Origin: Ignavibacteriaceae bacterium
Lineage (GTDB): Bacteria; Bacteroidota; Ignavibacteria; Ignavibacteriales; Ignavibacteriaceae
Assembly (NCBI GenBank): GCA_031292455.1
Contig: JARLHC010000032.1
Location: 1 to 47,025 of the forward strand
Length of the DNA stretch: 47,025 nt
Direction of reading: 5' to 3'
Below are positions 7,359-35,100 of the stretch, in pieces (position 1 is the stretch's first letter; the number at the start of each line of letters is the position of its first letter). A model generated the notes under the pieces. That model had not been told where the DNA came from and did not search any database. It saw nothing but the letters and a program-made list of their open reading frames with translations. A program made the position numbers and the translations under genes.

Positions 7359-8051
7359 ATGAAGAAAATCCAGATCTTAATTATTGAAGACAACAGACTT
7401 CTGCGTGATGGTATTGAATCAATACTCAAAAAACAGCCTGATATGCAAGTTGTCGCTACTTTTGGAAACGGGGAAAACATATTGCTTATGCTGGAAAAGG
7501 TTAAGCCAAATATAGTACTGCTTGATCTTGGCCTGCGAAATCAGAACAGTTTGCAAATTGTAAAATTATCCAAAGAACATTTCCCGGAAACTAAATTAAT
7601 CGTGATGGACCTTATTCCGCTTCAAGCAGATGTTTTTGAATTTGTAGAAGCCGGTGTTTCCGGATTTATTCTTAAAGATGCCAGCATTACTGAATTTTTG
7701 AATACAATTAGATTAGTGTACCAGGGAAATCAGGTATTACCGCCTCATTTAACCGGTTCTCTTTTTTCTCAGATAGTTGAACATGCCGTAAACGGATCAA
7801 AACAGTCAGCAATCATTGAATCTATCCGTATGACAAAACGGGAACGGCAGGTAATTGAATTGATTTCCGATGGGTCGACGAATAAAGAAATTGCGCAAAA
7901 ACTTCATCTCTCTACATACACAGTAAAAAGTCATGTTCATAATATCCTTGAAAAATTAGCCCTTAATACCCGTGTACAGATTGCAAAACACGCTCATCTT
8001 TCCGGATCATATAATACTGTAATGGATAAGACATCATTATTAGACGAATAA
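7359..8051 (+). CDS. LuxR/NarL-type response regulator, first paralogue
   Basis: This 230-residue DNA-binding response regulator has an N-terminal receiver domain (residues 1-120) with the acidic pair Glu10/Asp11, phosphoacceptor Asp56 in VLLDLG and Lys106 in FILKDAS. The C-terminal LuxR helix-turn-helix occupies about 157-215 (MTKRERQVIELISDG through STYTVKSHVHNILEKLAL). The Ser/Thr usually found at the end of receiver strand 4 is replaced by Asp84 (IVMDL). It is more than half identical by eye to the regulator at 27798, including the linker motif SLFSQIV-HAV. It is the first gene of the plus-strand region carrying the ten 34-bp elements and is a candidate for their regulator. No clear ribosome-binding site precedes it. 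The kinase at 9910 is the nearest candidate partner. Confidence 0.93.
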   Translation: MKKIQILIIEDNRLLRDGIESILKKQPDMQVVATFGNGENILLMLEKVKPNIVLLDLGLRNQNSLQIVKLSKEHFPETKLIVMDLIPLQADVFEFVEAGVSGFILKDASITEFLNTIRLVYQGNQVLPPHLTGSLFSQIVEHAVNGSKQSAIIESIRMTKRERQVIELISDGSTNKEIAQKLHLSTYTVKSHVHNILEKLALNTRVQIAKHAHLSGSYNTVMDKTSLLDE

Positions 8052-8080
8052 TCGACATTAATCCCCTCCCCCTTATGGAG

Positions 8081-8114
8081 TAGTTCCCTTTTCATCCTTT
8101 CGCCCGATTGAATT
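8081..8114 (+). promoter_or_regulatory. 34-bp CATCC element, copy 1 (before the Lmo0937-like gene)
   Basis: TAGTTCCCTTTTCATCC is followed by TTTCGCCCGATTGAATT, a near-consensus copy. The CATCC core ends 83 bp before the ATG at 8181. The left flank lacks a clear AAAGGATG arm. It lies 29 bp after the response-regulator stop. Confidence 0.8.
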
Positions 8115-8180
8115 GCTCCCTTTCTCTTCCTACCTTAATATAGAATTTAAACATTGAATTTTAAGGAAAGGACAAATACT

Positions 8181-8330
8181 ATGTTATATACTATCGCTGT
8201 TATTTTAATAATATTGTGGTTACTGGGATTCTCCATGGCTTACACCATGGGAGGATTTATTCACATTCTTCTGGTAATTGCAATTGTCGTTGTTTTGGTA
8301 AGAGTAATTAGCGGACGCCGCGCACTCTGA
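8181..8330 (+). CDS. 49-residue membrane peptide, Lmo0937/YqaE-like stress family
   Basis: A short gene reads MLYTIAVILIILWLLGFSMA, then YTMGGFIHILLVIAIVVVLV and RVISGRRAL. It forms two hydrophobic helices separated by a small glycine loop with a basic C-terminal tail. This is the pattern of the Lmo0937-family small membrane proteins, widely annotated in soil and host-associated bacteria and often stress-induced. AAGGAAAGGA about 8 bp upstream of the ATG is a strong ribosome-binding site and fixes the start. It sits between a 34-bp element (copy 1) and the AsmA-like gene 51 bp downstream, so the two are probably one transcript. The molecular function is unknown. Confidence 0.8.
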   Translation: MLYTIAVILIILWLLGFSMAYTMGGFIHILLVIAIVVVLVRVISGRRAL

Positions 8331-8381: not shown

Positions 8382-9758
8382 ATGATGAATAATAAATTAT
8401 TCACCTGGAGTAAGCCATCTCTACTAAAAGTAGCCAGGCATCCGGTTTTTATCATTGGGATTGTCATGCTTCTCTTTGTGTTAATAATAACATTCTTTCC
8501 TGATTATATTATAAATACATTTTTCAAAACCAGAATTACCAAAGCAATTACTGAAGTTTGTTCCGCTGATTCAGTACATCTTGGCCGACTTCATTATAAT
8601 GTCTGGAGGAATCGTGTAGGATGTGACTCGATATCATTAAAAACCAACGATTATACATTTAGTGCAGCCCCCCTTTCACTTAATGGATTCGGATTACTGA
8701 AAATAATCCGGCAAAGTAATTTTACCCCCAACACTATCGCCAACTCAGAAATCGACGCAAAGGGTATTATTTTATATTTCAATCAATCCCAACAGGAACT
8801 TCGATTTGGATTACTCCATATTTCAGTGCCAGACTCTGAATTAGTTATTGATTCAATTAAGTATTCACCTTTATCAAATGATGATAAATTCTTTTCTAAA
8901 AGTAGATTCAGGCAAACCAGCTATCGCATTCAAATTCCTCAAATTCAAATTCATGGCATGGATTGTCTCGCATTTCTGCAAAGTGACAATATTATTGCCC
9001 GGAAAATTGAAATAAATGAAGTGTCTGCCGACATCCTGGTGAACATGGATAAGCCCTATGATAAGAGTTCACAAAAGCCAAAAATGCCCAACGAGATCCT
9101 TGCTACTATGAAACAGGTGATTAAAATAGATAGTTTGAAAATTACTAATGGAAAGTTAAAATATTGCGAAAGATTTATCATAGGGACAAAACCGGGAATA
9201 ATCTTAATAAATGATATAAATATTTCAGCAGGTAGAATTGCTAATCATACCTCACGCTCTGATACTACGATTATCCTGGGAGACGGTCTATTTATGAACA
9301 CCGGTAAAATGAAATTGTTCATGTCGATCCCCCTCGAATCAAAGGATTTTTCCCTGAGATATTCCGGTTCGCTAAGCTCGATGGATGTAACCGAACTAAA
9401 TTCATTTATTGAACCAAGTGAAAACCAACGCATTAATTCCGGATTTCTGAAGTCCGCAAGGTTTAACATCAATGTTAATGCAGGAGATGCAAGCGGTAAC
9501 CTGCTGCTTGAGTATAATAACCTTGACATATCTTTTATAGATAAGAATACCGGAAGTGAAAAAGGAATATTCAATCAGATTTCATCTTTATTTGGTAAAA
9601 TATTTGTTATCCGCAAGGCCAATACTTCTGATGATAAAGGATTAATGAAGGTCGGTCTGACAAAATATATGCGAAACCCTGATGATTATTTCTTCCAGTA
9701 TGTATGGTTTGCACTCAGAAATGGGATTGCGGATGTCGTCGGATTCCCTCCTAAATAA
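8382..9758 (+). CDS. AsmA/DUF748-like membrane-anchored envelope protein
   Basis: This is a 458-residue protein with one N-terminal membrane anchor (about residues 19-42, HPVFIIGIVMLLFVLIITFF) and a large beta-rich domain predicted to lie in the periplasm. Patterns such as YNVWRNRVGCDSISLKTNDYTF, repeated SLKITNGKLKY-like strands and the C-terminal domain are reminiscent of AsmA-family or DUF748 proteins, which are implicated in lipid movement or outer-membrane assembly. It lies 51 bp after the Lmo0937-like gene and shares its 34-bp element. Grouping with mlaEFD and PAP2 genes in the same region fits an envelope-lipid role. Family assignment is from the overall pattern rather than a diagnostic motif. 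Confidence 0.55.
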   Translation: MMNNKLFTWSKPSLLKVARHPVFIIGIVMLLFVLIITFFPDYIINTFFKTRITKAITEVCSADSVHLGRLHYNVWRNRVGCDSISLKTNDYTFSAAPLSLNGFGLLKIIRQSNFTPNTIANSEIDAKGIILYFNQSQQELRFGLLHISVPDSELVIDSIKYSPLSNDDKFFSKSRFRQTSYRIQIPQIQIHGMDCLAFLQSDNIIARKIEINEVSADILVNMDKPYDKSSQKPKMPNEILATMKQVIKIDSLKITNGKLKYCERFIIGTKPGIILINDINISAGRIANHTSRSDTTIILGDGLFMNTGKMKLFMSIPLESKDFSLRYSGSLSSMDVTELNSFIEPSENQRINSGFLKSARFNINVNAGDASGNLLLEYNNLDISFIDKNTGSEKGIFNQISSLFGKIFVIRKANTSDDKGLMKVGLTKYMRNPDDYFFQYVWFALRNGIADVVGFPPK

Positions 9759-9799
9759 TTATTAACTATAACTTAATCACTTATATCCACCAAAGGATG

Positions 9800-9833
9800 T
9801 AGTTCCCCTTTCATCCTTTTGACCGATTTAACT
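9800..9833 (+). promoter_or_regulatory. 34-bp CATCC element, copy 2 (before the histidine kinase)
   Basis: TAGTTCCCCTTTCATCC is followed by TTTTGACCGATTTAACT. The left flank reads CAAAGGATG (9791-9799), so AAAGGATG and CATCCTTT make an 8-bp inverted repeat around a 12-bp centre. TTGACC at 9819 is followed after 17 bp by TATTAT, a sigma-70-like arrangement seen only in this copy. The core ends 93 bp before the start at 9910. Confidence 0.82.
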
Positions 9834-9909
9834 CATCATTATATTATTGTAGTTTATAGGTAATAAATACGATATCATTTTGCGCATAAACTATTCAATT
9901 TAAAACACT

Positions 9910-11403
9910 ATGAAGAACAATAATCTTATTCCCGATACAATACACCGGGAAAATATTGAAAGTAACCAGGACAACGTTAAAAAAGTTATCCTTCTTGTTG
10001 AAGATGAAGCTATCGTAGCCATGACGGAATCCATAGAATTAAAAAACTATGGTTATAATGTTATTCATGTTATGAATGGTCAGAAAGCGATTGATGTTGT
10101 CAATAATACTTCCAATGTAATTGATCTGATTCTAATGGACATTAATCTTGGAAGTAAATTAGACGGCACTGAAATAGCTAAAATAATACTTAAAGATCAT
10201 GATATTCCTTTATTGTTTCTTTCAAGCCATACGGAGCGTGAAATAGTAGATAAAACAGAGGATATTACTTTTTATGGATATGTTGTTAAAGATTCCGGCA
10301 TTATTGTTCTTGATGCTTCTATTAAAATGGCCTTTAGACTTCATGAAGCATATCAGGATTTGAAAAATCAGAAAATAAACATTGAGAACCAGAAATTAAA
10401 TTTGCAAATATTTGAAAAAAGATACCGCAGGCTCTTCGAAGCTGCGAAGGATGGTATAATAATACTTAATGCAGAAAGCGGGATGATCGTTGATGTAAAT
10501 CCTTTTTTAATTAATATGCTTGGATATTCCAAAGAACAGTTCCTAACAAAACATATCTGGGATATCAGCACACGCGATAATACTGAATATTCAAAGCAGA
10601 TGTTTAAAGAATTACAAGAGAAAGAATACGTGCGCTATGAAGATTTACCTTTGGAATCATCCGGAGGAATGGAAAAACATGTAGAGTTTGTAAGTAATGT
10701 TTATTTAGTCGATGGTGAAAAGGTTATTCAATGTAATATTCGTGATATATCAAACCGGATCAAACAGGAACAACTGATCCATGAAGAGCTGGAAAAACAG
10801 GAAGCGTTACTTAAAGAGATACAGCATCGTACCAAAAACAGCTTTAATATGATTACAAGTTTAATTCATATAAGGTCAGGGATAACCCATTCTGAGGAAG
10901 CCAAAACAGTCCTTGAAGATCTAACATTAAGAGTAAAATCAATTTCTGATTTATATTCACTTCTGTACGACACAAATTCTTTTTATGAAGCCCGGGTTAT
11001 TCCATATTGTAATAAAGTAATCGACTCCGTCCTCAATCTTTCAAAATATATCGAAGTTAATAAAAATATTCAGGATATTACAGTTTCTTCTTCAGATGCG
11101 GCTATCATCGGGATGATTCTTGTTGAACTGATATCAAACATTATTAAATATGCATTTCCTGATTCTCTTACAGGAATGGTAAATATAGAGTTAAAATTAA
11201 AAGATTCCAATGTTGTATTGATAGTGGAAGATGATGGTATCGGGTTACCTAAGGACTTTGATATAAATAAAATTGAAAGCATCGGGCTTCATCTTGTTGA
11301 CTTAATGGTTAGTCAGCTTGATGGTAAAATCCAATTCGTTCCGGGGAAAGGGACAAAGATAATAATTGAGTTCCCATTTTCAGCACCCAGCCCAAGATCA
11401 TAA
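9910..11403 (+). CDS. REC-PAS-HisKA_2 histidine kinase (cytosolic, receiver at the N-terminus)
   Basis: This 497-residue kinase lacks membrane segments. A receiver domain at about 23-142 has Glu31/Asp32, phosphoacceptor Asp77 (LILMDINL) and Lys127. A short coiled linker leads to a PAS domain at about 170-285 (YRRLFEAAKDGIIIL start). The HisKA_2-type dimerisation helix has His306 in KEIQHRTKNSFNMI, followed by an ATPase domain at about 385-490 with Asn410 in the N box (ELISNIIKY) and DDGIGLP at 441-447. With the receiver in front of the kinase core, an upstream kinase may control its activity, or the receiver may be reached by reverse phosphotransfer. Likely targets are the two LuxR-type regulators in this region. 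It is preceded by element copy 2; no clear ribosome-binding site is visible. Confidence 0.9.
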   Translation: MKNNNLIPDTIHRENIESNQDNVKKVILLVEDEAIVAMTESIELKNYGYNVIHVMNGQKAIDVVNNTSNVIDLILMDINLGSKLDGTEIAKIILKDHDIPLLFLSSHTEREIVDKTEDITFYGYVVKDSGIIVLDASIKMAFRLHEAYQDLKNQKINIENQKLNLQIFEKRYRRLFEAAKDGIIILNAESGMIVDVNPFLINMLGYSKEQFLTKHIWDISTRDNTEYSKQMFKELQEKEYVRYEDLPLESSGGMEKHVEFVSNVYLVDGEKVIQCNIRDISNRIKQEQLIHEELEKQEALLKEIQHRTKNSFNMITSLIHIRSGITHSEEAKTVLEDLTLRVKSISDLYSLLYDTNSFYEARVIPYCNKVIDSVLNLSKYIEVNKNIQDITVSSSDAAIIGMILVELISNIIKYAFPDSLTGMVNIELKLKDSNVVLIVEDDGIGLPKDFDINKIESIGLHLVDLMVSQLDGKIQFVPGKGTKIIIEFPFSAPSPRS

Positions 11404-11419
11404 ATTAGATCGATAGTAG

Positions 11420-11453
11420 TAGTTCCTTTTTCATCCTTTCGACCGATTGAATT
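11420..11453 (+). promoter_or_regulatory. 34-bp CATCC element, copy 3 (before the secreted/DUF6600 pair)
   Basis: TAGTTCCTTTTTCATCC is followed by TTTCGACCGATTGAATT; this copy equals the consensus. The core ends 169 bp before the ATG at 11606, the longest leader of the ten. It starts 16 bp after the kinase stop. Confidence 0.82.
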
Positions 11454-11605
11454 GACCCCCATATTGGAAGTATCTTTTCTTTCAGAGTTCAGACTCTTAA
11501 AATAATTACCGGGAGTTTTGACATGTTTCAAATTAAGTTAAACAATCGTCCTGTTCATTAAAGGTAATTGAATGATATGGCCGAATATTCTAAAGGAAAA
11601 ACATC

Positions 11606-12136
11606 ATGAGATATTTAATGGTACTAATTGCGGCAATGTTCTTGTGTACTGCATTGAATGCACAAGTACATGTAAGCTTCAACTTAGGCAGTCAGCCTGT
11701 TTGGGGCCCCACCGGTAATGATTATGTAGAAAATTATTACTTGCCCGATATAGAAGCATACTATAATGTTTCCCAACATCGTTATTACTTTAATGAAGGC
11801 GGACGTTGGGTCGGCAGGTCTTCTTTACCGTCACGTTATCGTAACTATGACTTATATAATTCTCATAAAGTAGTTATTAATGAAAGAGAGCCCTGGCGAA
11901 ATCATGAAACTTACAGAAGTCAATATGCCTCTTATAAAGGGCGCCACGATCAGCAGCCGATTCGGGATAGCCATGATTCTAAATATTTTGTAAATAAAAA
12001 CCATCCTCAGCATAATACCTGGGTTCAGCAGCAAAAGCATGATAATGGTAACCACTACGGACAGAATAAAGGAAATAATGGAAAAGGTAACAATGGAAAC
12101 GGAAAGGGGAACGGCAAAGGCAAGGGTAACAAGTAA
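11606..12136 (+). CDS. Secreted small protein with an Asn/Gly/Lys-rich tail
   Basis: This 176-residue protein begins with a clear signal peptide (MRYLMVLIAAMFLCTALNAQ, cleavage near residue 20). The mature part is rich in Tyr, Trp, Arg and His (HRYYFNEGGRWVGRSSLPSR, YDLYNSHKVVINEREPWR) and ends in a low-complexity tail built of GNNGKGN-type units. Similar small exported proteins are common in Bacteroidota, but I know no function. AAAGGA upstream supports the start. It is followed after 82 bp by the DUF6600 lipoprotein gene, with a small hairpin in the gap; both probably belong to the transcript that starts downstream of element copy 3. A structural or surface-hydration role is speculation. 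Confidence 0.7.
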   Translation: MRYLMVLIAAMFLCTALNAQVHVSFNLGSQPVWGPTGNDYVENYYLPDIEAYYNVSQHRYYFNEGGRWVGRSSLPSRYRNYDLYNSHKVVINEREPWRNHETYRSQYASYKGRHDQQPIRDSHDSKYFVNKNHPQHNTWVQQQKHDNGNHYGQNKGNNGKGNNGNGKGNGKGKGNK

Positions 12137-12162
12137 AAGAGATATATAAATATAAAAGTTAA

Positions 12163-12189
12163 AACCGGTTATTATTTTTGAAGCCGGTT
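12163..12189 (+). terminator. Small hairpin between the secreted protein and the DUF6600 gene
   Basis: AACCGG and CCGGTT pair across a 15-bp loop and are followed by GGTATAATTTTATT. The stem is short and the loop large, so it is at best a weak terminator or attenuator that would lower expression of the downstream lipoprotein gene. Confidence 0.3.
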
Positions 12190-12218
12190 GGTATAATTTT
12201 ATTTAATAAAGGTAAAAT

Positions 12219-13313
12219 ATGATAAAGAAAATATTGACTCCGTTGTTTATGGTTCTGCTTGCGTGGATTATTCCCGGATGCAGTACCGGATTTATTGCCC
12301 AGGATAATGGAACGGGTAATAATTCTAATTATACTGAAAATAATAGTCAGGATAACAATTCCGATTACGATGAATATAATGTTGATGACTTAAATCAGTA
12401 CGGCGAATGGGTAAATGTAAATCAATATGGGAGGGTATGGCACCCTTCAGTAATTAACAGCTGGCAGCCATTTACTAATGGACACTGGACTTATGATGGG
12501 AATGACTGGGTATGGGTTTCCTATGAACCGTTTGGCTGGATAGTTTACCATTACGGTGAATGGGAATATTCTCCTGAATATGGCTGGTTATGGATTCCCG
12601 GCAGAGATGCCTGGTCGCCGGCCCGTGTTCAATGGATCGATTACGGTGATAATATCGGTTGGGCTCCAATGCGTGCAAACAATCAGAATTGGCCAGAACC
12701 CTGGGTGAATAATAATGTTCATTCCTGGACAGTTGTAAGGACGGAAGATTTTAACAGGGAAAATATAACTTCCTATGGACTTCCTTCCGTATCACGTGTT
12801 AATAATGTTAATCAGAACCAAATTCAAAGGCGTCAGCCGGATGTTAAAATTGTTCAAAGCCATCTTAAGGAACCGATAAAAATTGTAAAAATTGATAAAG
12901 AACCTATAAGAAATGAAACTCAGCCTGTAAGCACTAATACTCCTCCGGTTAGAAATGATAATCCACCGGTAAGGACAATTGCTCCTCCGGTAAATAATGA
13001 TAATCCTCCGGTAAGAACCGGTGTTCCACCTGTTCAGAATAATAATCCACCAGTCAGGACTAATACTCCCCCGGTAAGAAACGATACCCCTCCGGTAATA
13101 AATAAAAATCAGACAAATGTAAGACCTTCCAATAATAGAAATATTATTCATATGCAGGTCCCTCCAGAAGAAAAACAAAAGGTTGCCAGGTATCAGCCAA
13201 AAGTTGAAAAAGATGTGCTAATAAAAAGGAATCCCCGCCCGGTTATAAATAATGCACCTAAAACAGACGGAAGAAACAATAATGACAAAAAGAGTGGAGA
13301 CGAAAGGAAATAA
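12219..13313 (+). CDS. DUF6600-type lipoprotein with a Pro-Pro-Val heptad tail
   Basis: This 364-residue protein has a lipoprotein signal with Cys21 (WIIPGCSTG). A Trp/Tyr-rich domain follows at about 60-150 with repeating units (YGEWVNVNQYGRVWHPS, WVWVSYEPFGWIVYHYGEW, YGWLWIPGRDAWSPARVQW), which is the DUF6600 pattern found in envelope proteins of Bacteroidota and Proteobacteria. Residues 242-297 are eight heptads beginning PPV, encoded by a 21-bp tandem repeat. The C-terminus is basic and could bind polyanions such as LPS or peptidoglycan. The AAAGG site 6 bp upstream supports the start. The Pro-rich segment is likely a rigid spacer. Function unknown. Confidence 0.8.
   Translation: MIKKILTPLFMVLLAWIIPGCSTGFIAQDNGTGNNSNYTENNSQDNNSDYDEYNVDDLNQYGEWVNVNQYGRVWHPSVINSWQPFTNGHWTYDGNDWVWVSYEPFGWIVYHYGEWEYSPEYGWLWIPGRDAWSPARVQWIDYGDNIGWAPMRANNQNWPEPWVNNNVHSWTVVRTEDFNRENITSYGLPSVSRVNNVNQNQIQRRQPDVKIVQSHLKEPIKIVKIDKEPIRNETQPVSTNTPPVRNDNPPVRTIAPPVNNDNPPVRTGVPPVQNNNPPVRTNTPPVRNDTPPVINKNQTNVRPSNNRNIIHMQVPPEEKQKVARYQPKVEKDVLIKRNPRPVINNAPKTDGRNNNDKKSGDERK
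12942..13109 (+). repeat. 21-bp coding tandem repeat, eight units (PPVxxxx heptads)
   Basis: Eight consecutive in-frame heptads start with Pro-Pro-Val (PPVRNDN, PPVRTIA, PPVNNDN, PPVRTGV, PPVQNNN, PPVRTNT, PPVRNDT, PPVINKN). The units are close enough at DNA level to allow copy-number change by slippage without loss of frame. Confidence 0.85.
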
Positions 13314-13366
13314 TTAATTGTATAAAATAATTTTTCACCAGATAATAAGATATACTATTAAAGACT

Positions 13367-13400
13367 TAATTCTTTTTTCATCCCTTTGGACTATTGAATT
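13367..13400 (+). promoter_or_regulatory. 34-bp CATCC element, copy 4 (before the KaiC-like gene)
   Basis: TAATTCTTTTTTCATCC is followed by CTTTGGACTATTGAATT. It departs from consensus at three or four positions but keeps the CATCC core and the ATTGAATT tail. The core ends 133 bp before the start at 13517. Confidence 0.75.
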
Positions 13401-13516
13401 GTTTGACAAACTTCCATAAGATTTGTGTGTTGCTTATAGAAAAAGAACATTTAGTATTATGCAAAATATAAAAGCATAATCATTTATTAATAAAAACGGA
13501 TCCGAAAACAAACATT

Positions 13517-15268
13517 ATGAATAAGAAGGACTTAGAATTTAAACGTAAAACCCTTCCAAAATCTCCCACAAGTATTCAGGGATTGGATGAAATTACAGGC
13601 GGCGGGTTACCAAAAGGCAGGCCGACACTTATATGCGGTGGTGCAGGTTGCGGAAAGACCCTTTTTGCAATGGAGTTCCTTGTCCGGGGAGCAACTCAAT
13701 ATAAGGAACCGGGTGTTTTTATCTCTTTCGAAGAAACTGAAGAAGAACTTACTGCAAATGTTGCTTCACTTGGGTTCGATCTGGAGAGTCTTATAAAACA
13801 AAAAAAAATCTGGCTTGAGAATATCCGCGTAGAACCTTCTGAAATTGAACAAAGCGGTGAATATGATTTAGCAGGATTGTTTGTCAGGATCCATCACGCT
13901 ATTGAAAGCATAAATGCAAAACGAGTTGTCCTAGATACTATTGAAATTCTCTTTTCAGGTTTACCTAATCCCCACATATTACGGGCTGAACTGCAGCGCC
14001 TATTGGGTTGGCTAAAAAAGAAAGGAATAACAACAATAATTACTGCAGAGCGGGGTGAAGGTTTTTTAACCCGACAGGGTCTGGAAGAATATGTCTCCGA
14101 TTGTGTTATTCTGCTCGATCATCGCGTAAATGATCAGTCATCAATACGGCGCCTGCGAATCGTAAAATATCGCGGGTCAACTCATGGAACCAACGAGTAT
14201 CCTTTCCTGATTGATGAAGACGGTTTTTCTGTCTTACCAGTCACATCCCTGGGTTTGAATTATTTTACATCAGCTGAGAGAATTTCTACAGGTATCCCCC
14301 GTCTTGATACCATGCTCTCCGGTAAAGGTTATTTCCGCGGAAGTACTGTTCTCGTTTCAGGAACAGCCGGTACCGGCAAGACAAGTATAGCTGCACAATT
14401 TGTTGAGTCCGCCTGCAGGAGAAAAGAGCGTGTCCTCTATTTTACTTTTGAAGAATCTCCCGGGCAGCTTATACGTAATATGTGTTCGATAGGAATAAAT
14501 TTAGAGCCGTGGGTAAAAAAAGGACTTCTTCAATTTCATGCCACGCGTCCTACTCTTTATGGATTGGAGACACATCTTACTACAAGCATAAAATTGATAA
14601 ATCAATTTAAACCTTCAGTTGTAATCCTTGACCCTATAAATGCATTTGTTATGGGAGAAAATCAAACTGAAGTCAAAACCATGCTATTGCGTCTTGTCGA
14701 TTTCTTAAAGATGAAAGAGTGCACAGCATTTTTTACAAGTCTCACTTCCGCCGGAGAAAATGTGGAAATTTCGGATGTTTATATTTCATCTTTAATCGAT
14801 ACCTGGCTATTGCTGCGTGATATTGAAATAGGTGGTGAACGAAACAGAGGGTTATATGTACTTAAGTCGCGCGGAATGGCTCACTCTAATCAGATTCGAG
14901 AGTTTAAACTGACAAATAACGGCATTGAACTTCTTGATGTTTATGTCGGTCCCGAAGGTGTATTGACAGGTTCAGCACGATTATCTCAGGAAACAAAAGA
15001 TGAAGCTGAACAACTTTTACGTCAGCAGGAAATCGGGCGGAAACAATTTGGATTAGAGCGTAAGCGTGAAGCTATGGAAGCTCAGAAGGTGTTACTGCAG
15101 TCTGAATTTGAAGCTGAAGAATCAGAATCCCTCAAATTAATACGTATAGAAAAAGCGCGAAATGAACGATTTATACAGGACAAGGCGAAGATGGCTAAAA
15201 GCAGAAAAGGTGATATTTATATGAAAACAGTTGCGGCAAATAGTAAGAAGCAAAAGAAATTAAAGTAG
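13517..15268 (+). CDS. KaiC-like double-domain ATPase
   Basis: This 583-residue RecA/KaiC-family protein has two tandem domains. Domain 1 has Walker A GGAGCGKT at 41-48 and the catalytic FEE at 71-73; domain 2 has Walker A GTAGTGKT at 282-289 and FEES at 310-313. In cyanobacterial KaiC domain 2 the autophosphorylated pair is Ser431/Thr432 in an IST-TDT context; here the aligned segment is YISSLIDTW with Ser423/Ser424, so a Ser-Ser pair may be used. After domain 2 a charged, probably coiled-coil tail (about 490-583) replaces the usual KaiC C-terminal loop. There is no kaiA or kaiB in the window. Placement right after the sensor kinase and element copy 4 suggests a stress-signalling ATPase rather than a clock. 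No clear ribosome-binding site is seen. Confidence 0.93.
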   Translation: MNKKDLEFKRKTLPKSPTSIQGLDEITGGGLPKGRPTLICGGAGCGKTLFAMEFLVRGATQYKEPGVFISFEETEEELTANVASLGFDLESLIKQKKIWLENIRVEPSEIEQSGEYDLAGLFVRIHHAIESINAKRVVLDTIEILFSGLPNPHILRAELQRLLGWLKKKGITTIITAERGEGFLTRQGLEEYVSDCVILLDHRVNDQSSIRRLRIVKYRGSTHGTNEYPFLIDEDGFSVLPVTSLGLNYFTSAERISTGIPRLDTMLSGKGYFRGSTVLVSGTAGTGKTSIAAQFVESACRRKERVLYFTFEESPGQLIRNMCSIGINLEPWVKKGLLQFHATRPTLYGLETHLTTSIKLINQFKPSVVILDPINAFVMGENQTEVKTMLLRLVDFLKMKECTAFFTSLTSAGENVEISDVYISSLIDTWLLLRDIEIGGERNRGLYVLKSRGMAHSNQIREFKLTNNGIELLDVYVGPEGVLTGSARLSQETKDEAEQLLRQQEIGRKQFGLERKREAMEAQKVLLQSEFEAEESESLKLIRIEKARNERFIQDKAKMAKSRKGDIYMKTVAANSKKQKKLK

Positions 15269-15317
15269 AATAAAAAAGTCAAACTAATATTACCATTAAC
15301 TTCTCCCTCAAAGGATG

Positions 15318-15351
15318 TAGTCCCTTTTTCATCCTTTTGACCGATTGAACC
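15318..15351 (+). promoter_or_regulatory. 34-bp CATCC element, copy 5 (before the stress/PAP2 operon)
   Basis: TAGTCCCTTTTTCATCC is followed by TTTTGACCGATTGAACC. The left flank reads CAAAGGATG (15309-15317), giving the same AAAGGATG/CATCCTTT inverted repeat as copy 2. The core ends 81 bp before the start at 15416. Confidence 0.82.
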
Positions 15352-15415
15352 GATATTATTTCCTTCATATCATACAAAGTAAATAAAAATTTCTAAACAA
15401 CTCTCCAGGAGAATT

Positions 15416-15856
15416 ATGAAAATCAAATATTTCATCATAACAGTTATAGCATTTATAACAATGTCATTATTAACTGGATTCTATATGAATCAGGATGCGA
15501 AAGTAAAAGTTCAGCAGGATAACGGAAAACAAGCACATCAGGGTTTGAAAAAAGTAAAGACAGGTTTTGAGCATGAATGGCAGGAATTCAAAAACGATGC
15601 TGAATTAAAAATAAATGCTAATGAAAAACGAATTGCTGAATTTAAAGTAAAAATTAAAACAGAAGGGAAAGAATTCAAAGCTAAATATGATAAAGATGTG
15701 GTAGTATTAGAACAAAAAAATACCGGTCTGAAGAAAAAAATAAATGAGTTTAAGTTCGAAAGCAAAGACAAATGGGTAGAATTCAAAAATGGTTTTAATA
15801 AAGATATGGATGTAGTCGGAAAATCAATCAAGGATTTATTCGCTAAAAAAGATTAA
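15416..15856 (+). CDS. Small anchored or exported coiled-coil protein, Sll1863-like stress family
   Basis: This 146-residue protein has an N-terminal hydrophobic segment (FIITVIAFITMSLLTGF, about residues 6-22) that is a signal or anchor. The remainder is a highly charged helix with repeated EFK/WxEFK motifs (EHEWQEFKNDAELKINANE, KWVEFKNGFNKDMDVVGKSI). This matches the pattern of small proteins annotated in Bacteroidota as Sll1863-family stress-response proteins. AGGAG six bases before the ATG fixes the start. It is the first gene after element copy 5 and probably heads an operon that runs to 20776, with gaps of 37, 8, 7, 83 and 33 bp. Molecular function unknown; a periplasmic stress-sensing or scaffold role is conjecture. 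Confidence 0.65.
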   Translation: MKIKYFIITVIAFITMSLLTGFYMNQDAKVKVQQDNGKQAHQGLKKVKTGFEHEWQEFKNDAELKINANEKRIAEFKVKIKTEGKEFKAKYDKDVVVLEQKNTGLKKKINEFKFESKDKWVEFKNGFNKDMDVVGKSIKDLFAKKD

Positions 15857-15893
15857 TTAGAAAAAAAATGTCTTTAATTGGAAGGATAGGCAA

Positions 15894-17576: not shown

Positions 17577-17584
17577 AATATGCA

Positions 17585-25458: not shown

Positions 25459-25482
25459 GATAGTTAATTCCCCCCAAAGATG

Positions 25483-25516: not shown

Positions 25517-25588
25517 CTTTATAACTTCAAAGTAATTTGTTAATAGGTAATTAACGAACACTAATTTATCAAATAAGGCTAATTTCTC

Positions 25589-26095: not shown

Positions 26096-26128
26096 AATAA
26101 AATAATTGAACTTAATTTATTAACAAAT

Positions 26129-27608: not shown

Positions 27609-27658
27609 TTTAATCGAGTTGTGAAATTAATTGATATTACATATTCGCCCAAAAGAAT

Positions 27659-27692
27659 TAGTTCCTTTTTCATCCCTTTGAGCGATTGAATT
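27659..27692 (+). promoter_or_regulatory. 34-bp CATCC element, copy 8 (before the second response regulator)
   Basis: TAGTTCCTTTTTCATCC is followed by CTTTGAGCGATTGAATT. It lies 51 bp after the terminator of the OmpA pair. The core ends 122 bp before the start at 27798. Its target encodes a transcription factor, so autoregulation is possible. Confidence 0.82.
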
Positions 27693-27797
27693 TACATCTA
27701 ATTTTAAATTAATTTTATGCCAGATATAGATAAAGAGTATTTTAATATAACGTATAGGAGCATAATTTAGACCCACTCCTTTAAATTGAAATGAAAC

Positions 27798-28487
27798 ATG
27801 AAAAAAATCAGATTGTTACTTATTGAGGATAACCGACTTCTTCGTGATGGCATTTTTTCAATTTTAAAGGGTCATAAAGATATTGTAATTATTGCTTCAT
27901 CAGGAGATGGGAAGAACTCACTTTCAAAAATCCAGCAGCTAAAACCAAATGTAGTCCTTTTAGATTTGGGATTACGAAGTCAAAACAGCTTACACGTAGT
28001 TGAAATGGTCAAAAAAGAATTTCCTCAAGCAAAGATTATTGTTATGGACCTTGCACCAGTACAGGCTGATATTCTGCAGTATGTAAAGGCAGGCGCAAAT
28101 GGCTTCATCCTAAAGGACGCTTCACTTAAAGATTTTCTAATCACGATACGAACAGTATCTGAAGGGTCGACAGTTCTTCCGCCTCTCTTAGTCGATTCTC
28201 TTTTTTCACAGATTGTTGACCATGCGGTTAAGGAAGGCAAACCAAGGTTAAAAGAAGCGGTTATGATGACAAAGCGGGAGCGGGAAGTTATCCAGCTTCT
28301 TGGTGATGGAATGAGCAACAGAGAGATTGGTCAAAAAATTCATGTTTCGACCTATACTATTAAAAGCCATATTCATAATATTATGGAAAAACTAGCATTG
28401 CATACCAGACTAGAAATAGCTAACTACTCTTATACTGATCAAACTTTGAAAACTATAACCAAAAGTATATCGTTGGTCAACCATTAG
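27798..28487 (+). CDS. LuxR/NarL-type response regulator, second paralogue
   Basis: This 229-residue regulator is a close paralogue of that at 7359 and has the same layout: receiver with Glu10/Asp11, phosphoacceptor Asp56, Lys106, then LuxR helix-turn-helix from about 155 (MTKREREVIQLLGDG, STYTIKSHIHNIMEKLAL). It shares the unusual Asp84 at the switch position. The recognition helix (STYTIKSHIHNI versus STYTVKSHVHNI) is nearly identical, so both should bind the same DNA site. Unlike the first paralogue it carries a clear 34-bp element upstream (copy 8). No ribosome-binding site is visible. It is monocistronic by spacing (282 bp to the next gene). Confidence 0.93.
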   Translation: MKKIRLLLIEDNRLLRDGIFSILKGHKDIVIIASSGDGKNSLSKIQQLKPNVVLLDLGLRSQNSLHVVEMVKKEFPQAKIIVMDLAPVQADILQYVKAGANGFILKDASLKDFLITIRTVSEGSTVLPPLLVDSLFSQIVDHAVKEGKPRLKEAVMMTKREREVIQLLGDGMSNREIGQKIHVSTYTIKSHIHNIMEKLALHTRLEIANYSYTDQTLKTITKSISLVNH

Positions 28488-28675
28488 CCAAACTTTGGCT
28501 GCAGAAAATGAGGTAATTAGATGGTGCAGAGAATAAAATAAAGAATAACATTAGTTATAATTGAAAATATTAATGATCTGTTTTGATTTGCCAGGAATGC
28601 TACATATTAATACTGGTTAAACGGGAAAGCGAGTTAGGGGAATAGATAAGATTAAGATTTCTAACTCTTAAGAAT

Positions 28676-28709
28676 TAATCCTTTTTTCATCCTTTAGAGG
28701 CATATATAA
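28676..28709 (+). promoter_or_regulatory. 34-bp CATCC element, copy 9 (before the radical SAM pair)
   Basis: TAATCCTTTTTTCATCC is followed by TTTAGAGGCATATATAA; only the first half matches well. The core ends 77 bp before the ATG at 28770. Confidence 0.7.
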
Positions 28710-28769
28710 TATAAAGTAATTTATATAGGTTCTTTGATCATAAAATGGAAATGATCAGGATTGTTTCAA

Positions 28770-30374
28770 ATGCAATTCCATCAAAGACATGATGCTAACA
28801 AGAAGTTTAAGGTAAATATAGGCGATTATATGAATGGCAAACATCAAGTTGGGATAATAGATCTAGTATCTAAAAAACCTAACAATAAATTATTTGCTCG
28901 AATAATGAATGCAAACTTTGCAAGTATTATGCCGCAGGTAGTAGGGGTATGGTGCGAAGAAGAGGGGCATGAAGTTACATATATTTGTTACACAGGAAGA
29001 GAAAATCTTATTCAGGAACTACCAAATAAAGCGGATCTGATCTTTATTTGTGCATTTACCGAAGCAGCACTTACCGCGTATGCGCTAAGCAATCTTTTAA
29101 GGTTACGCGGCGCAATAACAGTATTGGGAGGACCACATGCACGATGCTACCCGGAGGATGCATTAAAATATTTCGATTATGTTGTCGGATTTACTGATAA
29201 AAATATAATCCATGAAATTTTAGAGGACTGTTCCCCTCACCGCCCAACCGGTTATCATCTCACAGCTCAAAGACAGCCATTACAACTTCCGGGAGTAAGA
29301 CAACGCTGGAAATTTATAGAGCCTACGCTTAAGAAGGCTCCATTAATTAAAATGGTCCCCATGCTTGGCAGTTTGGGATGCCCTTATACTTGCAGCTTCT
29401 GCATTGATTCGACGGTAGCTTATCAACCATTGGACTTTGAAGTTTTGAAAGAAGATTTATCATTTCTTCTTACCAAGTTCAAACGTCCGCTTGTAGGATG
29501 GCATGACCCGAATTTTGGAGTAAGGTTTGACGAATACATGGATGCAATTGAAGAAGCTGTTCCTGAAAATCGGATTGATTTTATAGCAGAAAGCAGTTTA
29601 TCGTTATTATCAGAACCTCATATGAAACGGCTTAAGCGTAATGGTTTCGGAGCAATGCTTCCTGGGATAGAATCGTGGTTTGATCTTGGAAATAAATCAA
29701 AGACTGGAAACCTTACCGGAATGGAGAAGGTTAAACATGTTGCAGAGCAGGTTAACATGATATTAAGGTATGTCCCATATGTTCAAACCAATTTTGTTCT
29801 AGGACTTGATTCGGACCAGGGTGAAGAACCATTTGAACTTACTAAGGAATTTGTTAATCTTACTCCTGGAGCATTCCCAGGCTATTCATTACTGACTTCA
29901 TTTGGACAGGCGGCACCCCTTAATTTAGAATATCAACAATTAGACAGGGTAATTCCCGTTCCATTTCATTTCCTTGATAATAATCATGCAATGAATATTA
30001 AACCGAAAAATTATTCATGGCCGGAATTCTATTCTCATGTTATCAGTCTTGGCGAACATACTTTTTCCTGGGGAGCAATCACAAGGCGTTTAATAGCCAC
30101 CAATGCCTTTGTCCCCCGCTGGATGAATGTAGTAAGGGCTATTTCAGAAGAAGGATTCGGCAGAATTGCATATAACAAAAAAATATTGAATCATTTGAAT
30201 TCCACTATTGAATTCCGCCGTTACTTTGAACAAGAAACTTCAGATCTCCCTTTATTCTATATAGACATGATCAAAAATGATATGGGACCATTGTGGGATA
30301 TGCTTCCTCAAGGCGCAATATTTCATGATCAAAATGCCTATTTAAAAACTACGGCAAAGCGAATTGCTGTATAA
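28770..30374 (+). CDS. B12-binding-domain radical SAM protein, first of a pair
   Basis: This 534-residue protein has an N-terminal Rossmann-like cobalamin-binding-type domain (about 25-170; VGIIDLVSKKPNNKLFARIM, ADLIFICAFTEAALTAYAL, VLGGPHARCYPEDAL) and a radical SAM domain with the cluster motif Cys204-x3-Cys208-x2-Cys211 (GCPYTCSFC). The DxHxxG cobalamin ligand motif is not visible, so B12 may be bound base-off or not at all. A TTG at 28761 extends the frame by three codons, but AGGA nine bases before the ATG at 28770 favours that start; the ATG at 28830 is also possible. It is 31 bp upstream of a second radical SAM gene. Reaction unknown. Confidence 0.85.
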   Translation: MQFHQRHDANKKFKVNIGDYMNGKHQVGIIDLVSKKPNNKLFARIMNANFASIMPQVVGVWCEEEGHEVTYICYTGRENLIQELPNKADLIFICAFTEAALTAYALSNLLRLRGAITVLGGPHARCYPEDALKYFDYVVGFTDKNIIHEILEDCSPHRPTGYHLTAQRQPLQLPGVRQRWKFIEPTLKKAPLIKMVPMLGSLGCPYTCSFCIDSTVAYQPLDFEVLKEDLSFLLTKFKRPLVGWHDPNFGVRFDEYMDAIEEAVPENRIDFIAESSLSLLSEPHMKRLKRNGFGAMLPGIESWFDLGNKSKTGNLTGMEKVKHVAEQVNMILRYVPYVQTNFVLGLDSDQGEEPFELTKEFVNLTPGAFPGYSLLTSFGQAAPLNLEYQQLDRVIPVPFHFLDNNHAMNIKPKNYSWPEFYSHVISLGEHTFSWGAITRRLIATNAFVPRWMNVVRAISEEGFGRIAYNKKILNHLNSTIEFRRYFEQETSDLPLFYIDMIKNDMGPLWDMLPQGAIFHDQNAYLKTTAKRIAV

Positions 30375-30405
30375 AATATATTTAGAAAATCTAAAGAGAT
30401 AATAA

Positions 30406-31887
30406 ATGAATATTCTTTTAGTTTATCCGATGTATCCAGACACATTCTGGAGTTTTAAACATGCTTTGAAATTCGTATCAAAAAAGGCTAGTTTTCCACC
30501 GCTGGGACTATTAACAGTTGCCTCAATGCTGCCAAAAGCTTGGGATTTAAAGTTAATAGATATGAATGCGAGTCAGCTGACTGACGATGATATACTCTGG
30601 GCAGATTTGGTTTTTATAAGTGCAATGTCCATACAAAGCGAATCCACAGAAGAAGTGGTTCAGAGATGTAAAGGATTAAACACAAGAATTGCGGCAGGCG
30701 GACCTTTATTTACAAGCAGTCCCGAAAAATATCCAACCATTGACCATCTGATTCTAAATGAAGCCGAAATTACTCTACCTGAATTTTTGAATAATCTAAA
30801 CAAAGGAAGAACAAAACATATATATACTTCGGAAGAATGGGCGGATATTACTACCACACCTTTGCCACTTTGGGAACTAATATCGATAAATAATTATACT
30901 TCGATGAATATACAATATTCACGAGGCTGCCCATTTGATTGTGATTTTTGTGATATAACTGTTCTTTATGGCAGGAAACCACGCACTAAAACGAAAGAAC
31001 AGGTAATAGCTGAATTAGATGAACTGTATTTCACAGGCTGGCGTGGACCGGTGTTTTTTGTTGATGATAATTTTATCGGCAATAAGTCAAAGTTAAAGAA
31101 AGAAATATTGCCCGTAATTGCCGAGTGGAATGAGAAAAGAAAAAATCCTTTTTACTTTAATACAGAGGCATCAATTAATCTTGCAGATGATGATAAACTT
31201 ATGTATTTAATGGTTAAGGCGGGCTTTGAAGCAGTATTTATTGGCATCGAAACTCCAAATGAAGAGAGCTTAATTGAGTGTAATAAATCTCAAAACAGAA
31301 ACCGAGATCTGATTTCAAGCGTGAAGAAGATTCAGGAGTCAGGTCTGGAAGTTCAGGGTGGATTCATTGTCGGGTTTGACAATGATCCCCCTGCAATTTT
31401 TGATAAACTCACGAACTTTATCCAGGAAAGCGGGATAGTAACAGCAATGGTAGGATTACTGAATGCGCCTCAAGGAACAAAACTCCAAAAAAGGCTCCTT
31501 TCAGAAGGGAGATTACTAAAAGATTTCAACGGAAACAACACAGATTTTTCCATTAACTTTATCCCCTATATGGATTCAGAAGTACTTCTTAATGGTTATA
31601 AGAAAATTCTGAATACGATATATTCTCCCAAATATTATTATGAACGCGTTATGTGCTTTATGAAAGAATTTGAACCAAAAAAGAAGAAGACATTTCATAT
31701 TAACCCTAATTACATCCTTGCATTATTTAAATCTATGTTAAAATTAGGGGTAATAGGAGAGGAAAGAATATATTACTGGAAATTATTTTTCTGGTCGTTA
31801 TTTCGCAAGCCACAATTGTTTTCTTTAGCGATATTGTTTACTATATACGGATTTCACTTCAGAAAAATATCCAATAGCATTTATTAA
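30406..31887 (+). CDS. B12-binding-domain radical SAM protein with DUF4070-type C-terminus (HpnP-like architecture)
   Basis: This 493-residue enzyme has an N-terminal cobalamin-binding-type fold (MNILLVYPMYPDTFWSFKHA start, FPPLGLLTVASMLP), then radical SAM with Cys175-x3-Cys179-x2-Cys182 (RGCPFDCDFC) and the conserved segments GRKPRTKTKEQVIAELDELY and VFFVDDNFIGNK. This layout with a DUF4070-like C-terminus is shared with HpnP, the hopanoid C2-methylase, and with many uncharacterised relatives. The C-terminal end is hydrophobic and may touch the membrane. No hopanoid synthesis genes are nearby, so I claim architecture only. It shares element copy 9 with the preceding gene and probably acts on the same lipid or pathway. 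Confidence 0.87.
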   Translation: MNILLVYPMYPDTFWSFKHALKFVSKKASFPPLGLLTVASMLPKAWDLKLIDMNASQLTDDDILWADLVFISAMSIQSESTEEVVQRCKGLNTRIAAGGPLFTSSPEKYPTIDHLILNEAEITLPEFLNNLNKGRTKHIYTSEEWADITTTPLPLWELISINNYTSMNIQYSRGCPFDCDFCDITVLYGRKPRTKTKEQVIAELDELYFTGWRGPVFFVDDNFIGNKSKLKKEILPVIAEWNEKRKNPFYFNTEASINLADDDKLMYLMVKAGFEAVFIGIETPNEESLIECNKSQNRNRDLISSVKKIQESGLEVQGGFIVGFDNDPPAIFDKLTNFIQESGIVTAMVGLLNAPQGTKLQKRLLSEGRLLKDFNGNNTDFSINFIPYMDSEVLLNGYKKILNTIYSPKYYYERVMCFMKEFEPKKKKTFHINPNYILALFKSMLKLGVIGEERIYYWKLFFWSLFRKPQLFSLAILFTIYGFHFRKISNSIY

Positions 31888-31978
31888 GATTAATTACAGC
31901 CTTAAAATTGAGCAAAAAGGATAAGTGACACCGCGAAAGAGTACTTGCACCCCAATATTTTGCATGATATTCATGATA

Positions 31979-32012
31979 TAATCCTTTTTTCATCCCTTTG
32001 GAGGATTTACAT
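31979..32012 (+). promoter_or_regulatory. 34-bp CATCC element, copy 10 (before the glucan synthase)
   Basis: TAATCCTTTTTTCATCC is followed by CTTTGGAGGATTTACAT. The first half equals copy 9. The core ends 124 bp before the ATG at 32120. It is the last copy in the window. Confidence 0.72.
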
Positions 32013-32119
32013 ATCAAAATAACTTTCGTAGTATTATCCCAAGTTTTAAAATTTGCCTTATAAAATACGATGGATAAAAGACTCAAAAGAATTTCCTCTA
32101 TTATCTCTTATGGAAAAAG

Positions 32120-35100
32120 ATGAAGATTATCAATCCGAAAATTAATCAATCCTTGTTACGACTTAAAGTACAGCTTAGTGAGAGTTTTCTTGCAAAACAA
32201 TTCGCTTCTGGTGAATCGCCGTTACGTTCGGAGTTATTGAGCGCCGATCAGATGGAGCAGCATGGCAAGACTCTCGCCAACAGACACGTATTAAGTTCTC
32301 TTGCTTCACCTGACCAACAACTCCTTGTAAGGCTGGCTGAGAATGAAATCTTTTTGATTGAAGTCCACAATTTGTTAACTGAAACAGTTAAATCAGGAAA
32401 TCAAGTGACACCAGCCGGCGAATGGCTGCTTGATAATTTTTATTTAATCGAAGAGCAGATCCGGACAAGCAAGAGACATTTGCCGAAAGGTTATATCAAA
32501 GAGTTACCGCACCTGTTAGACGGTCCATCAAAAAGTCTCCCACGGGTTTATGATATCGCAGAAGAAGCTATTTCACATGGAGATGGTCGTGTTGACCCGG
32601 AAAACCTAAACCGTTTTGTTACTGCTTATCAGACTATAACAACCTTAAAAATTGGCGAGTTATGGGCAATCCCAACTATGCTTCGACTTGCACTGATTGA
32701 GAATCTCAGGCGAGTAGCTGTCCGGGTAGCTGCAGGGAGACTTGACCGTGATCTGGCAAGTTCATGGGCTGACAAGATGATAGAAACAGCAGAAAAAGAT
32801 CCAAAGAGTCTGATATTAGTAATCGCGGATATGGCACGTACCGACCCACCTATGACAAGTGCATTTGTATCGGAATTTTCCCGGAGATTACAGGGATTAA
32901 GCCATGTTTTAATATCGCCATTAACATGGATCGAGCAAAGGTTGTCTGAATCAGGTCAAACGATAGAAAAAATAGTCCAGCGGGGAAATCAGGAACAAGC
33001 AGGCGACCAGGTTTCAATCAGCAACAGTATAGGTAGTCTTAGATTCCTTGAGTCAACAAACTGGAAACAGTTTGTTGAAAAGATGAGCATTGTTGAACAA
33101 ATTCTGCGAAAAGATCCGGGTGGAGTTTATGGTAAAATGGATTTCATCACACGTGACAGTTATCGCCATATCATAGAAAAAATTGCTAAGAGAAGTCCTC
33201 AGTCTGAAAAAGACATTGCACAAAAAGCAATCCAGCTTACACAAGATAGTGCTGTTATCAAGGGAATTGGAGACAGAACTGCACATGTAGGTTTTTATCT
33301 AATAGACAAAGGACTGAAACAACTTGAGAACATCACAAATGTAAAGTATTCCTTCTCAGCATTATTGCGAAAAGTGAGCAGCCGGTTTCCATTATCGATT
33401 TATATCAGTTCGATAATAATTATTAGCGTAATCTTAACAGCTATATTACTATTCAAAGCAATCAATATAGGATTGACTGGATGGTTATTTGGAGTTATCG
33501 GAATAATTGTTCTACTGTGCACAAGCCAATTTACAATAACTCTGGTAAACTGGATATCAACATTGCTGGCAAGACCCGAACCCTTACCAAGAATGGATTT
33601 TTCAGAAGGAATACCACCGGAATTACGCACACTTGTAATAATTCCGACAATATTAATGAATGATCAAAATATTAAAGAACTAACTGAGGCACTTGAGGTA
33701 CGGTATCTTGCAAACCGGGATGACTATCTGCATTTTGGTCTGTTGACTGATTTCAAAGATTCAATTACGGAAACAACTCCGGAAGATGAACATCTTATCC
33801 AACTGACCCGTAGGAAAATTGAAGAACTTAATGAAAAATACAGTAGATCAGGCGAAGAAACTTTCTTTCTTTTCCATCGACCGAGACAATGGAATCCTAA
33901 AGAACAGATTTGGATGGGTTACGAACGTAAAAGAGGAAAACTTGAAGAATTGAATTGCTTATTACGGGGTGGATGTAAAAACCGTTTCTCATTAATTATT
34001 GGCAAGATTGAGATTTTGCCACTGGTAAAATACATAATCACTCTTGATACAGATACACAATTACCACGCGATTCTGCACGTCAATTAGTCGGAGCCATAG
34101 CCCACCCCCTGAACCGAGCTCGATACGATGAAAAAAAGCAACGTGTAAATGAAGGGTACACAATATTGCAGCCTCGTGTAGCGGTGAGTCTACCTGGAAC
34201 AAACCGCTCCCAATATGCAAGATTATATGGTAGTCAGCCCGGCATTGACCCATATACGCGTACTGTTTCAGATGTGTACCAGGATATTTTCGGTGAAGGT
34301 TCATTTATAGGAAAGGGCATTTACGATATTGATATTTTCGATCGTACTTTAAATGGACGCTTTCCTGAAAACCTTATTCTGAGTCATGATCTTATCGAAG
34401 GATGTTATGCCCGGGCGGGGCTTTTAAGTGATGTACAATTATTTGAGGAGTATCCCTTCCGATATAATACTGATGTGAACCGCAGATACCGTTGGATCCG
34501 AGGAGACTGGCAATTGATACGCTGGCTTCTGCCAATTGTTCCGGGTCTTAAAGGCAAATTGAAAAAGAATCCTCTATCAATATTGTCCAGATGGAAAATA
34601 TTCGATAACCTCCGGCGCAGTTTAATTCCATTAGCACTTACTTTGCTGTTACTTACCGGGTGGATTATACTGAAACAACCGTTCTTCTGGACATTGGTAA
34701 CGATAGGAATCATTCTTGTCCCCTCAATAATTATTTCCATTTTCGATTTATTCAGAAAACCATCAGATTTATTTTGGAGACAGCACATATCAGCCTCGAT
34801 ACATTCAGCAGGAGATCATTTCGTGCAGGCGGTATTTACACTTATTACCCTCCCTTACGAAGCGTTTTTTAGTCAGGATGCAATAATCAGAACTATTTGG
34901 CGGATGCTAATTTCACATAGAAAATTACTTGAATGGAACCCATTCAATGTAAAAGTCCGCAAAAACCTTAACACAATTTCCAGATCATTCAGAACAATGT
35001 GGATCTCTCCTTTTACAGCATTTAGTATAATAACATATTACTCGATTACAAATCAGACTGTTCCCGTCATAGTTATTCCAATTATATTCCTTTGGATGGC

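Follow-up and report, generated by a model that had tools for sequence, protein, structure and literature searches.

Among the general stress regulons of bacteria are that of SigB in Bacillus and Listeria and that of PhyR-EcfG in the Alphaproteobacteria, and the NarL/FixJ response regulators (NarL, VraR, and DevR) share an architecture in which a receiver domain (REC) is combined with a GerE helix-turn-helix. KaiC of Rhodobacter sphaeroides, with its C-terminal coiled coil, is represented by structure 8dba, and such C-terminal tails, together with two serine sites, are ascribed to the kaiC2 subgroup in the excerpted text of that report (PMC10076222). The excerpted part of a genome survey describes one Bacteroidetes group that has only KaiB2/KaiC2-like proteins, gives the central clock output factors as missing outside the cyanobacteria, and cites a stress role for the Legionella kai operon (PMC5520375). 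The present analysis concerns a stretch of 47,025 nucleotides from an Ignavibacteriaceae bacterium (the window; forward strand of contig JARLHC010000032.1, assembly GCA_031292455.1), in which one DNA element of 65 bases recurs upstream of ten gene units that include a NarL-type response regulator, RR2, and a KaiC homologue. It seems probable that this dedicated regulator, itself autoregulated, activates a clustered, all-or-none regulon through a composite promoter.

A repeat finder yielded a single family of ten members, all on the plus strand between positions 8,071 and 32,002 of the window. The ten element copies (8,072–32,034) lie upstream of ten co-directional units, the first open reading frame (ORF) of each starting 73–186 bp after the element, as measured from the T of a conserved TAG that is taken here as relative position 0. 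A 22-base consensus matches seven of the ten copies with at most three mismatches and has no match at that tolerance in 100 dinucleotide shuffles of the sequence. A 40-column matrix derived from 15 sites of the same genome gives exactly ten matches in the window, at 38–60 bits, the ten copies themselves belonging to its training set; the top score in reversed, non-complemented sequence (the window plus 36 loci, 1.18 million positions) is 10.3 bits. The claim of the initial annotation that one repeated element precedes ten units is thus confirmed, with ten copies by matrix and none in shuffled or reversed sequence. A looser pattern, at up to three mismatches, gave 38 matches genome-wide compared with 33 in a control and, because these numbers are similar, only low-mismatch matches and the matrix model were trusted; a two-mismatch match on contig C5 received no backing from the model in the own-genome scan. 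That genome (3.36 Mb in 171 contigs, the window being the entire contig C42) contains 15 strong sites, all of them training sites of the model, and one weaker site, and the next match has an E value of 0.09. Six of the 16 sites are outside the window (C126 has three, C137 and C47 have one apiece, and the weaker site is on C68, E 3.4e-4), so that the window cluster represents most, not all, of the regulon: the ten targets proposed initially stand, but the set extends beyond the window. On C126, a weak second site (G000:C126:15783-15828, E 0.09) directly precedes the strong site at 15,834, possibly forming a tandem pair.

RR2 and its paralogue RR1 both contain a receiver domain and a C-terminal GerE helix-turn-helix that score above the curated cut-offs, and also weaker Sigma70_r4 matches that overlap GerE. 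In the PDB, the regulator comes closest to VraR (E 1.2e-30), followed by NarL (E 3.8e-27). Among 94 relatives of at least 42% identity (a count without rows that cover the regulator incompletely and two rows below 42%), the phospho-acceptor Asp56 is kept in 91, Lys106 and Glu10 in all 94, and Asp11 in 86; the regulator may be controlled by phosphorylation. The position of the β4 Thr/Ser switch, as set by alignment to VraR, is occupied by Asp84 in 82 of the 94 (34 of 35 plus 48 of 59). To judge from these residues, the RR2 family is an atypical subfamily of the REC plus GerE architecture. RR1 has no element upstream of it in the window; element 1 begins 20 bp after its stop codon. Two regulator copies in relatives (L061:10001-10687 and L075:9114-9794) have an in-frame stop near the C terminus.

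A search with RR2 retrieved 36 loci, 50–92% identical in the best segment. The source records are mostly labeled Ignavibacteriales, Ignavibacteria(e), Ignavibacteriaceae, Ignavibacterium, Melioribacter, or Stygiobacter; others carry the labels Bacteroidetes/Bacteroidota or, singly, Chlorobiaceae, Bacteroidales, and Chitinophagaceae. One or more sites scoring above 12 bits are present in every one of the 36, and in 26 of 35 (L079, cut at a contig end, was left out) a site is found within 520 bp upstream of the regulator gene, at a median distance of 141 bp. A wider listing comprises 257 distinct sites in 89 loci (1.24 Mb) at a score cut of 10, where reversed sequence reaches 7.1 at most; ten loci were omitted from this count as duplicates of other stretches, L046 and L066 were likewise left out of the site listing, and the sites of L049, some flanks of other omitted loci, and the C68 site are excluded. 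ORFs of at least 150 residues span 75% of the bases, but 246 of the 257 sites fall outside them, and in 61 of 63 loci with multiple sites all are on one strand.

Among 41 genomes of the family, the element (E 1e-4) and the regulator (E 1e-50) are present in the same 15 and both are missing from the other 26 (Fisher p 1.6e-11, uncorrected for relatedness). Across 99 genomes of the class, the model based on own-genome sites gives 16 with both, one with the element only (G004), nine with the regulator only, and 73 with neither (p 2.8e-11). The regulator count in this table includes 23 genomes at or above 199 bits, a cut chosen after the gap down to the next match at 151 bits had been seen, plus two fragments (G063, 54% identity, and G072, 50%); at E 1e-30, regulator matches occur in 42 of the 99. 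In eight of the nine regulator-only genomes, diverged copies of the element scoring 12–43 bits are present around the regulator, the only stretches scanned, where reversed sequence does not exceed −2.4; the matrix used was built without these nine genomes and before they were fetched. A broader model, R2, changes the class table to 24 with both, one with the element only (G004), one with the regulator only (G012), and 73 with neither. Most of the loci used to train R2 had been retrieved by way of the regulator, in part from genomes of the samples, which makes the gain partly circular; this does not apply to the 73 genomes with neither. Sites were found in 11 of 118 genomes of the phylum, all 11 within the class, with no element match in the 89 taken as outside it (29 rows are marked as own genome, order, or class; two of the 89 are listed under the same phylum and 87 are unlisted). 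Element and regulator also switch together between sister genomes of single genera, in g101, g107, g109, and g115 of the family sample and in g6, g7, g15, g20, g45, and, with G082, g17 of the class sample. The letters of the sites change with divergence of the regulator: A at relative position 5 is found in 12 of 23 sites from three genomes with regulators 54–55% identical, in four of 19 from six genomes at 58–64%, and in two of 95 from eight genomes at 74% or above. G211, which belongs to the same genus as the window's genome, has 33 sites compared with 16, twice as many.

Several observations weigh against assigning the element to this regulator. The nearest upstream site is 0.6–1.8 kb away in six of the 35 regulator loci, and three have none within 3 kb upstream. 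In G004, a fragmented assembly, three sites occur without a regulator of the RR2 clade, and G012 has the regulator with no site, even by the diverged-copy matrix. Recall of R2 favors regulator-positive genomes because of the way it was trained, and the tracking of site letters could be explained by shared descent. The symmetry expected of an operator for a dimer is borderline for an inverted repeat (3.5 versus a 95% null of 2.2) and not above the null for a direct repeat (1.8 versus 2.2), and neither a simple palindrome nor a direct repeat was retained as the operator. Other island genes, KaiC among them, share the co-occurrence, and association is not binding. Since KaiC and also the radical SAM and Mla genes, which recur beside the element system in relatives, are linked to it, the regulator does not stand out by linkage alone. 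It is conceivable, therefore, that another DNA-binding protein reads the element and that RR2 and RR1 are only frequent members of the regulon, as the sites of G004 would allow. This appears unlikely, however, in view of the identical distribution of element and regulator in the 41 family genomes, the location of the element upstream of the regulator gene in most loci, and the site variants that track regulator divergence; in addition, RR2 and RR1 are the only window proteins tested with Pfam that have a DNA-binding domain of the transcription factor type, the rest of the genome being unscreened for candidates. The NarL-type regulator family is thus the likely reader of the element.

The genes downstream of the sites in relatives were assigned automatically for 236 of the 257 sites (21 have no ORF, and some short assignments will be wrong) and grouped by single linkage, each group being named after a single representative or after the protein of the window. 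RR2-like regulators (31) form the largest group, ahead of radical SAM proteins (21), ice-binding proteins (15), and KaiC (14), followed by CsbD-like proteins (12; the representative scores 36.4 of 40 bits), PAS hybrid kinases (10), and the 168-residue type of the window (8), and then by MlaE and YtxH (7 each), lmo0937 (6), and an unnamed family and DUF4398 (5 each). Of 70 unlabeled target ORFs, 54 were aligned, short or doubtful ones being left out; Pfam identified Ice_binding in 11, a Por secretion tail in seven, an outer membrane protein barrel in five, DUF4382 and YtxH in three each, and Usp, ferritin, SpoIIE, Band 7, and Sigma70_r2 in single members. Ice-binding-like proteins (L161:6602-7846 and the group of 15) rank third in frequency among the direct targets of relatives; no such protein was reported for the window proteins scanned.

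The heterogeneity of the products might suggest a neighborhood of unrelated genes that have a promoter type in common but no coordinated program, and several window members are seldom found beside the system elsewhere. The sensor kinase, the DUF6600 protein, and the glucan synthase belong to the least conserved members: at the cuts used, the first two have no match in 72 loci and the third has one, and they are the first gene behind a site in one, two, and three cases, respectively, the window's own included. The kinase was considered as a constant partner and rejected, having no match in the 72 loci at a cut of 35% identity across half of the protein; copies in L075 (61.7% identical, missed by the cut) and G211 (75%) indicate that it is rare, not absent, in relatives. 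An uncoordinated neighborhood is nevertheless quite unlikely, since the 3.36 Mb genome has no more than 16 sites, of which ten fall within 24 kb, the element has an all-or-none distribution, and target families seen in the window reappear in other islands, where the units are in changed order and still preceded by sites. G211 has the glucan synthase in a position unlike that in the window, and likewise the kinase, which there stands behind a PAP2 gene, yet both follow a site. The ten units are very likely to form one co-controlled regulon. The island-like system envisaged initially holds up in that there is a single element with a single candidate regulator family, the units are clustered on one strand, and presence among close relatives is all or none apart from G004 and G012; this distribution and the clustering support a putative island. 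Base composition was discarded as a sign of transfer, the cluster having a G+C content of 36.0% without clear difference from the other parts of the contig (37.7%, 40.3%, and 37.5%).

The structure of the element is compatible with activation. A logo of 167 sites shows a conserved block from about relative position −9 to +29 and a second, ungapped box with T50 at 66%, A51 at 76%, and T55 at 93%; the 167 were taken from 176 sites (score of at least 25, full length) selected on positions −9 to +30 only, and the second box is for this reason independent evidence. As read from these patterns, the element is a composite promoter of rigid spacing, in which a putative operator of about 36 bp (positions −9 to +26, CAAARGATGTAGTYCYTTTTTCATCCYTTTGNNCGA) would abut a TTG box, with a TA...T box 20 nt further on. 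The housekeeping promoters of Bacteroidota have the boxes TTTG and TAnnTTTG, and we read positions 27–29 and 50–55 as the two boxes that an ordinary promoter in the phylum would have. In a MAFFT alignment of 82 of 120 listed sites, which was also used with RNAalifold, the second box is one base off in some copies, so that the spacing may vary by one base. Transcription is predicted to start near position 62, which would put the operator center near −53, a location that suits an activator rather than a repressor.

The rigid spacing of both boxes to the rest of the element, and a Sigma70_r2 domain in one of the 54 scanned targets of relatives (by eye, L113:6511-7137), might be taken to indicate that an alternative sigma factor reads the element as its promoter, with no need of an activator. 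That is very unlikely, because the strongest conservation, at positions 0 to 21, is some 40–60 bp before the expected start and beyond the usual sigma contacts, and because the boxes resemble the housekeeping type. A role of the element as RNA, in a 5′ leader or a riboswitch-like structure, is scarcely credible, since some copies contain a GATG...CATC inverted repeat but RNAalifold predicts no base pair in the 82 copies and the promoter boxes are downstream of the conserved block.

In the mechanism proposed for the NarL-type regulator, RR2, perhaps together with RR1, would bind the operator and the bound regulator would recruit RNA polymerase with an ordinary sigma factor. It would activate its own gene together with some 15 further units, of which nine, clustered with the regulator gene on one strand, would constitute an island that is acquired or lost in one piece. 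The products consist mainly of envelope proteins, small proteins of stress families, a KaiC2-type ATPase, and radical SAM proteins, and the likely role is for this reason a general stress or dormancy-type remodeling program, which would be induced by a corresponding physiological signal. An envelope and stress theme had been proposed from the window and is a reasonable one in view of the product families, though supported in part only: the direct targets in relatives include MlaE, YtxH, lmo0937, OmpA-like, ferritin, and Usp members, but radical SAM and ice-binding proteins, KaiC, and PAS hybrid kinases are targets as well.

The KaiC homologue of the window (583 residues) aligns with 8dba over residues 13–567, the C-terminal extension included (E 8.5e-202), and has Walker A motifs at 41 and 282 and, at 423, the Ser-Ser site ISSLIDTW of the KaiC2 group. 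KaiC (E 1e-100) is present in 12 of the 15 system-positive and in none of the 26 system-negative family genomes. For KaiB there is no match at E 1e-5 in the window's genome, which is 96.7% complete. A kaiB gene directly follows kaiC in the same unit in two genomes (G211:C110:57455-57697 and G206:C23:75497-75739) and is broken in G227, and KaiB is encoded elsewhere in the genome in four more of the 41. As a constant partner, KaiB was rejected: it occurs in seven of 41 family genomes, five system-positive and two negative, and beside kaiC in three. That KaiC informs the regulator is speculation. The broader idea, that a KaiC2-type energy or time sensor, the atypical NarL-type regulator, and a 25–50 kb envelope/stress set together make up one transferable, non-cyanobacterial Kai output system, with KaiC reporting back on the regulator and a common composite promoter for each unit, is rather unlikely.

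The features of the window are collected in Table 1. The product labels given initially to the ten units were largely matched by Pfam and NCBIfam, the AsmA-like label being weak. For the 176- and 168-residue proteins, no family scores high enough to be meaningful. The LysE and Nramp genes (20,927–22,934), which the initial annotation did not name, are in the run behind element 5, with no further element. A run of 21-bp repeats, of seven codons each, is present in the DUF6600 gene (12886–13116), and 90-bp repeats in the OmpA gene (26798–27153) correspond to its thrombospondin type 3 repeats. Near the contig end (46451–46930) there are two pairs of repeats at a distance of about 350 bp, possibly from a cut-off repetitive protein.

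Table 1. Elements and genes of the window; each element comprises the putative operator, the TTG box (relative positions 27–29), and the TA...T box (50–55)
Feature	Position	Strand	Assignment and basis
Element 1	8072..8136	+	Precedes lmo0937-family gene; repeat finder, matrix
Element 2	9791..9855	+	Precedes HisKA_2 sensor kinase; matrix
Element 3	11411..11475	+	Precedes 176-aa protein and DUF6600; matrix
Element 4	13358..13422	+	Precedes kaiC; matrix
Element 5	15309..15373	+	Precedes sll1863-family/DUF3943/PAP2/PRC/LysE/Nramp run; matrix
Element 6	22948..23012	+	Precedes mlaEFD; matrix
Element 7	25474..25538	+	Precedes 168-aa protein and OmpA; matrix
Element 8	27650..27714	+	Precedes RR2 (proposed autoregulation); matrix; same place in relatives
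Element 9	28667..28731	+	Precedes radical SAM pair; matrix
Element 10	31970..32034	+	Precedes GH94-type glucan synthase; matrix
RR1	7359..8051	+	Paralogue of RR2, 56–57% identity
lmo0937-family membrane peptide (DUF5670)	8181..8330	+	Pfam/NCBIfam
458-aa protein, weakly DUF748/AsmA-like	8382..9758	+	E 0.0038, 15.7 of 50 bits
REC-PAS-HisKA_2-HATPase kinase	9910..11403	+	Pfam/NCBIfam
176-aa protein (signal-like start, by eye) and DUF6600 protein	11606..13313	+	Pfam
KaiC2-type double ATPase with C-terminal extension	13517..15268	+	Pfam/NCBIfam, 8dba alignment, motifs
sll1863-family stress protein, DUF3943, two PAP2, 210-aa protein, PRC-barrel, LysE, Nramp	15416..22934	+	Pfam/NCBIfam
MlaE, ABC ATPase (MlaF position), MlaD	23062..25458	+	Pfam
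168-aa protein and OmpA/TSP_3 protein	25589..27550	+	Pfam
RR2, NarL-type response regulator (REC + GerE)	27798..28487	+	Proposed activator; Pfam
Two B12-binding/radical SAM proteins	28761..31887	+	Pfam/NCBIfam
2,909-aa GH94/glycoamylase (cyclic-glucan-synthase type) protein	32120..40849	+	Pfam

A literature search, thin on subscription journals, returned nothing named that describes the element or the regulon. Although the architecture of RR2 and RR1 is that of the NarL/FixJ regulators, the two are far under the NCBIfam cut-offs for NarL (equivalog NF007935, 250 bits; RR2 129.6 and RR1 132.1) and MadR (125.2 versus 300 bits), and they differ further in the replacement of the β4 Thr/Ser by Asp84 and in a long putative operator of borderline symmetry. 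The SigB and PhyR-EcfG regulons have similar product families (lmo0937, CsbD-like, YtxH, the sll1863 family, ferritin, and Usp), and the window kinase resembles PhyK of the PhyR-EcfG systems, with 72.9 bits compared with a cut-off of 750; in the present system, in contrast, control appears to involve a response regulator and housekeeping-type boxes with no link to an alternative sigma factor, the genome being unsearched for EcfG, and the genes are in islands. A little-studied bacterial class would thereby gain a large predicted regulon, recognizable by sequence alone, with a named candidate regulator and promoter. With the KaiBC timers, such as those of R. sphaeroides and the Legionella kai operon, the window has in common a KaiC that aligns with the R. 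sphaeroides protein through the C-terminal extension and carries the Ser-Ser site of the KaiC2 group. In contrast to those timers and to the RpaA output regulon of cyanobacteria, it is one target among many, in a genome that has no KaiB match, and its recurrent link to the element makes testable what KaiC2 proteins outside the cyanobacteria act on.

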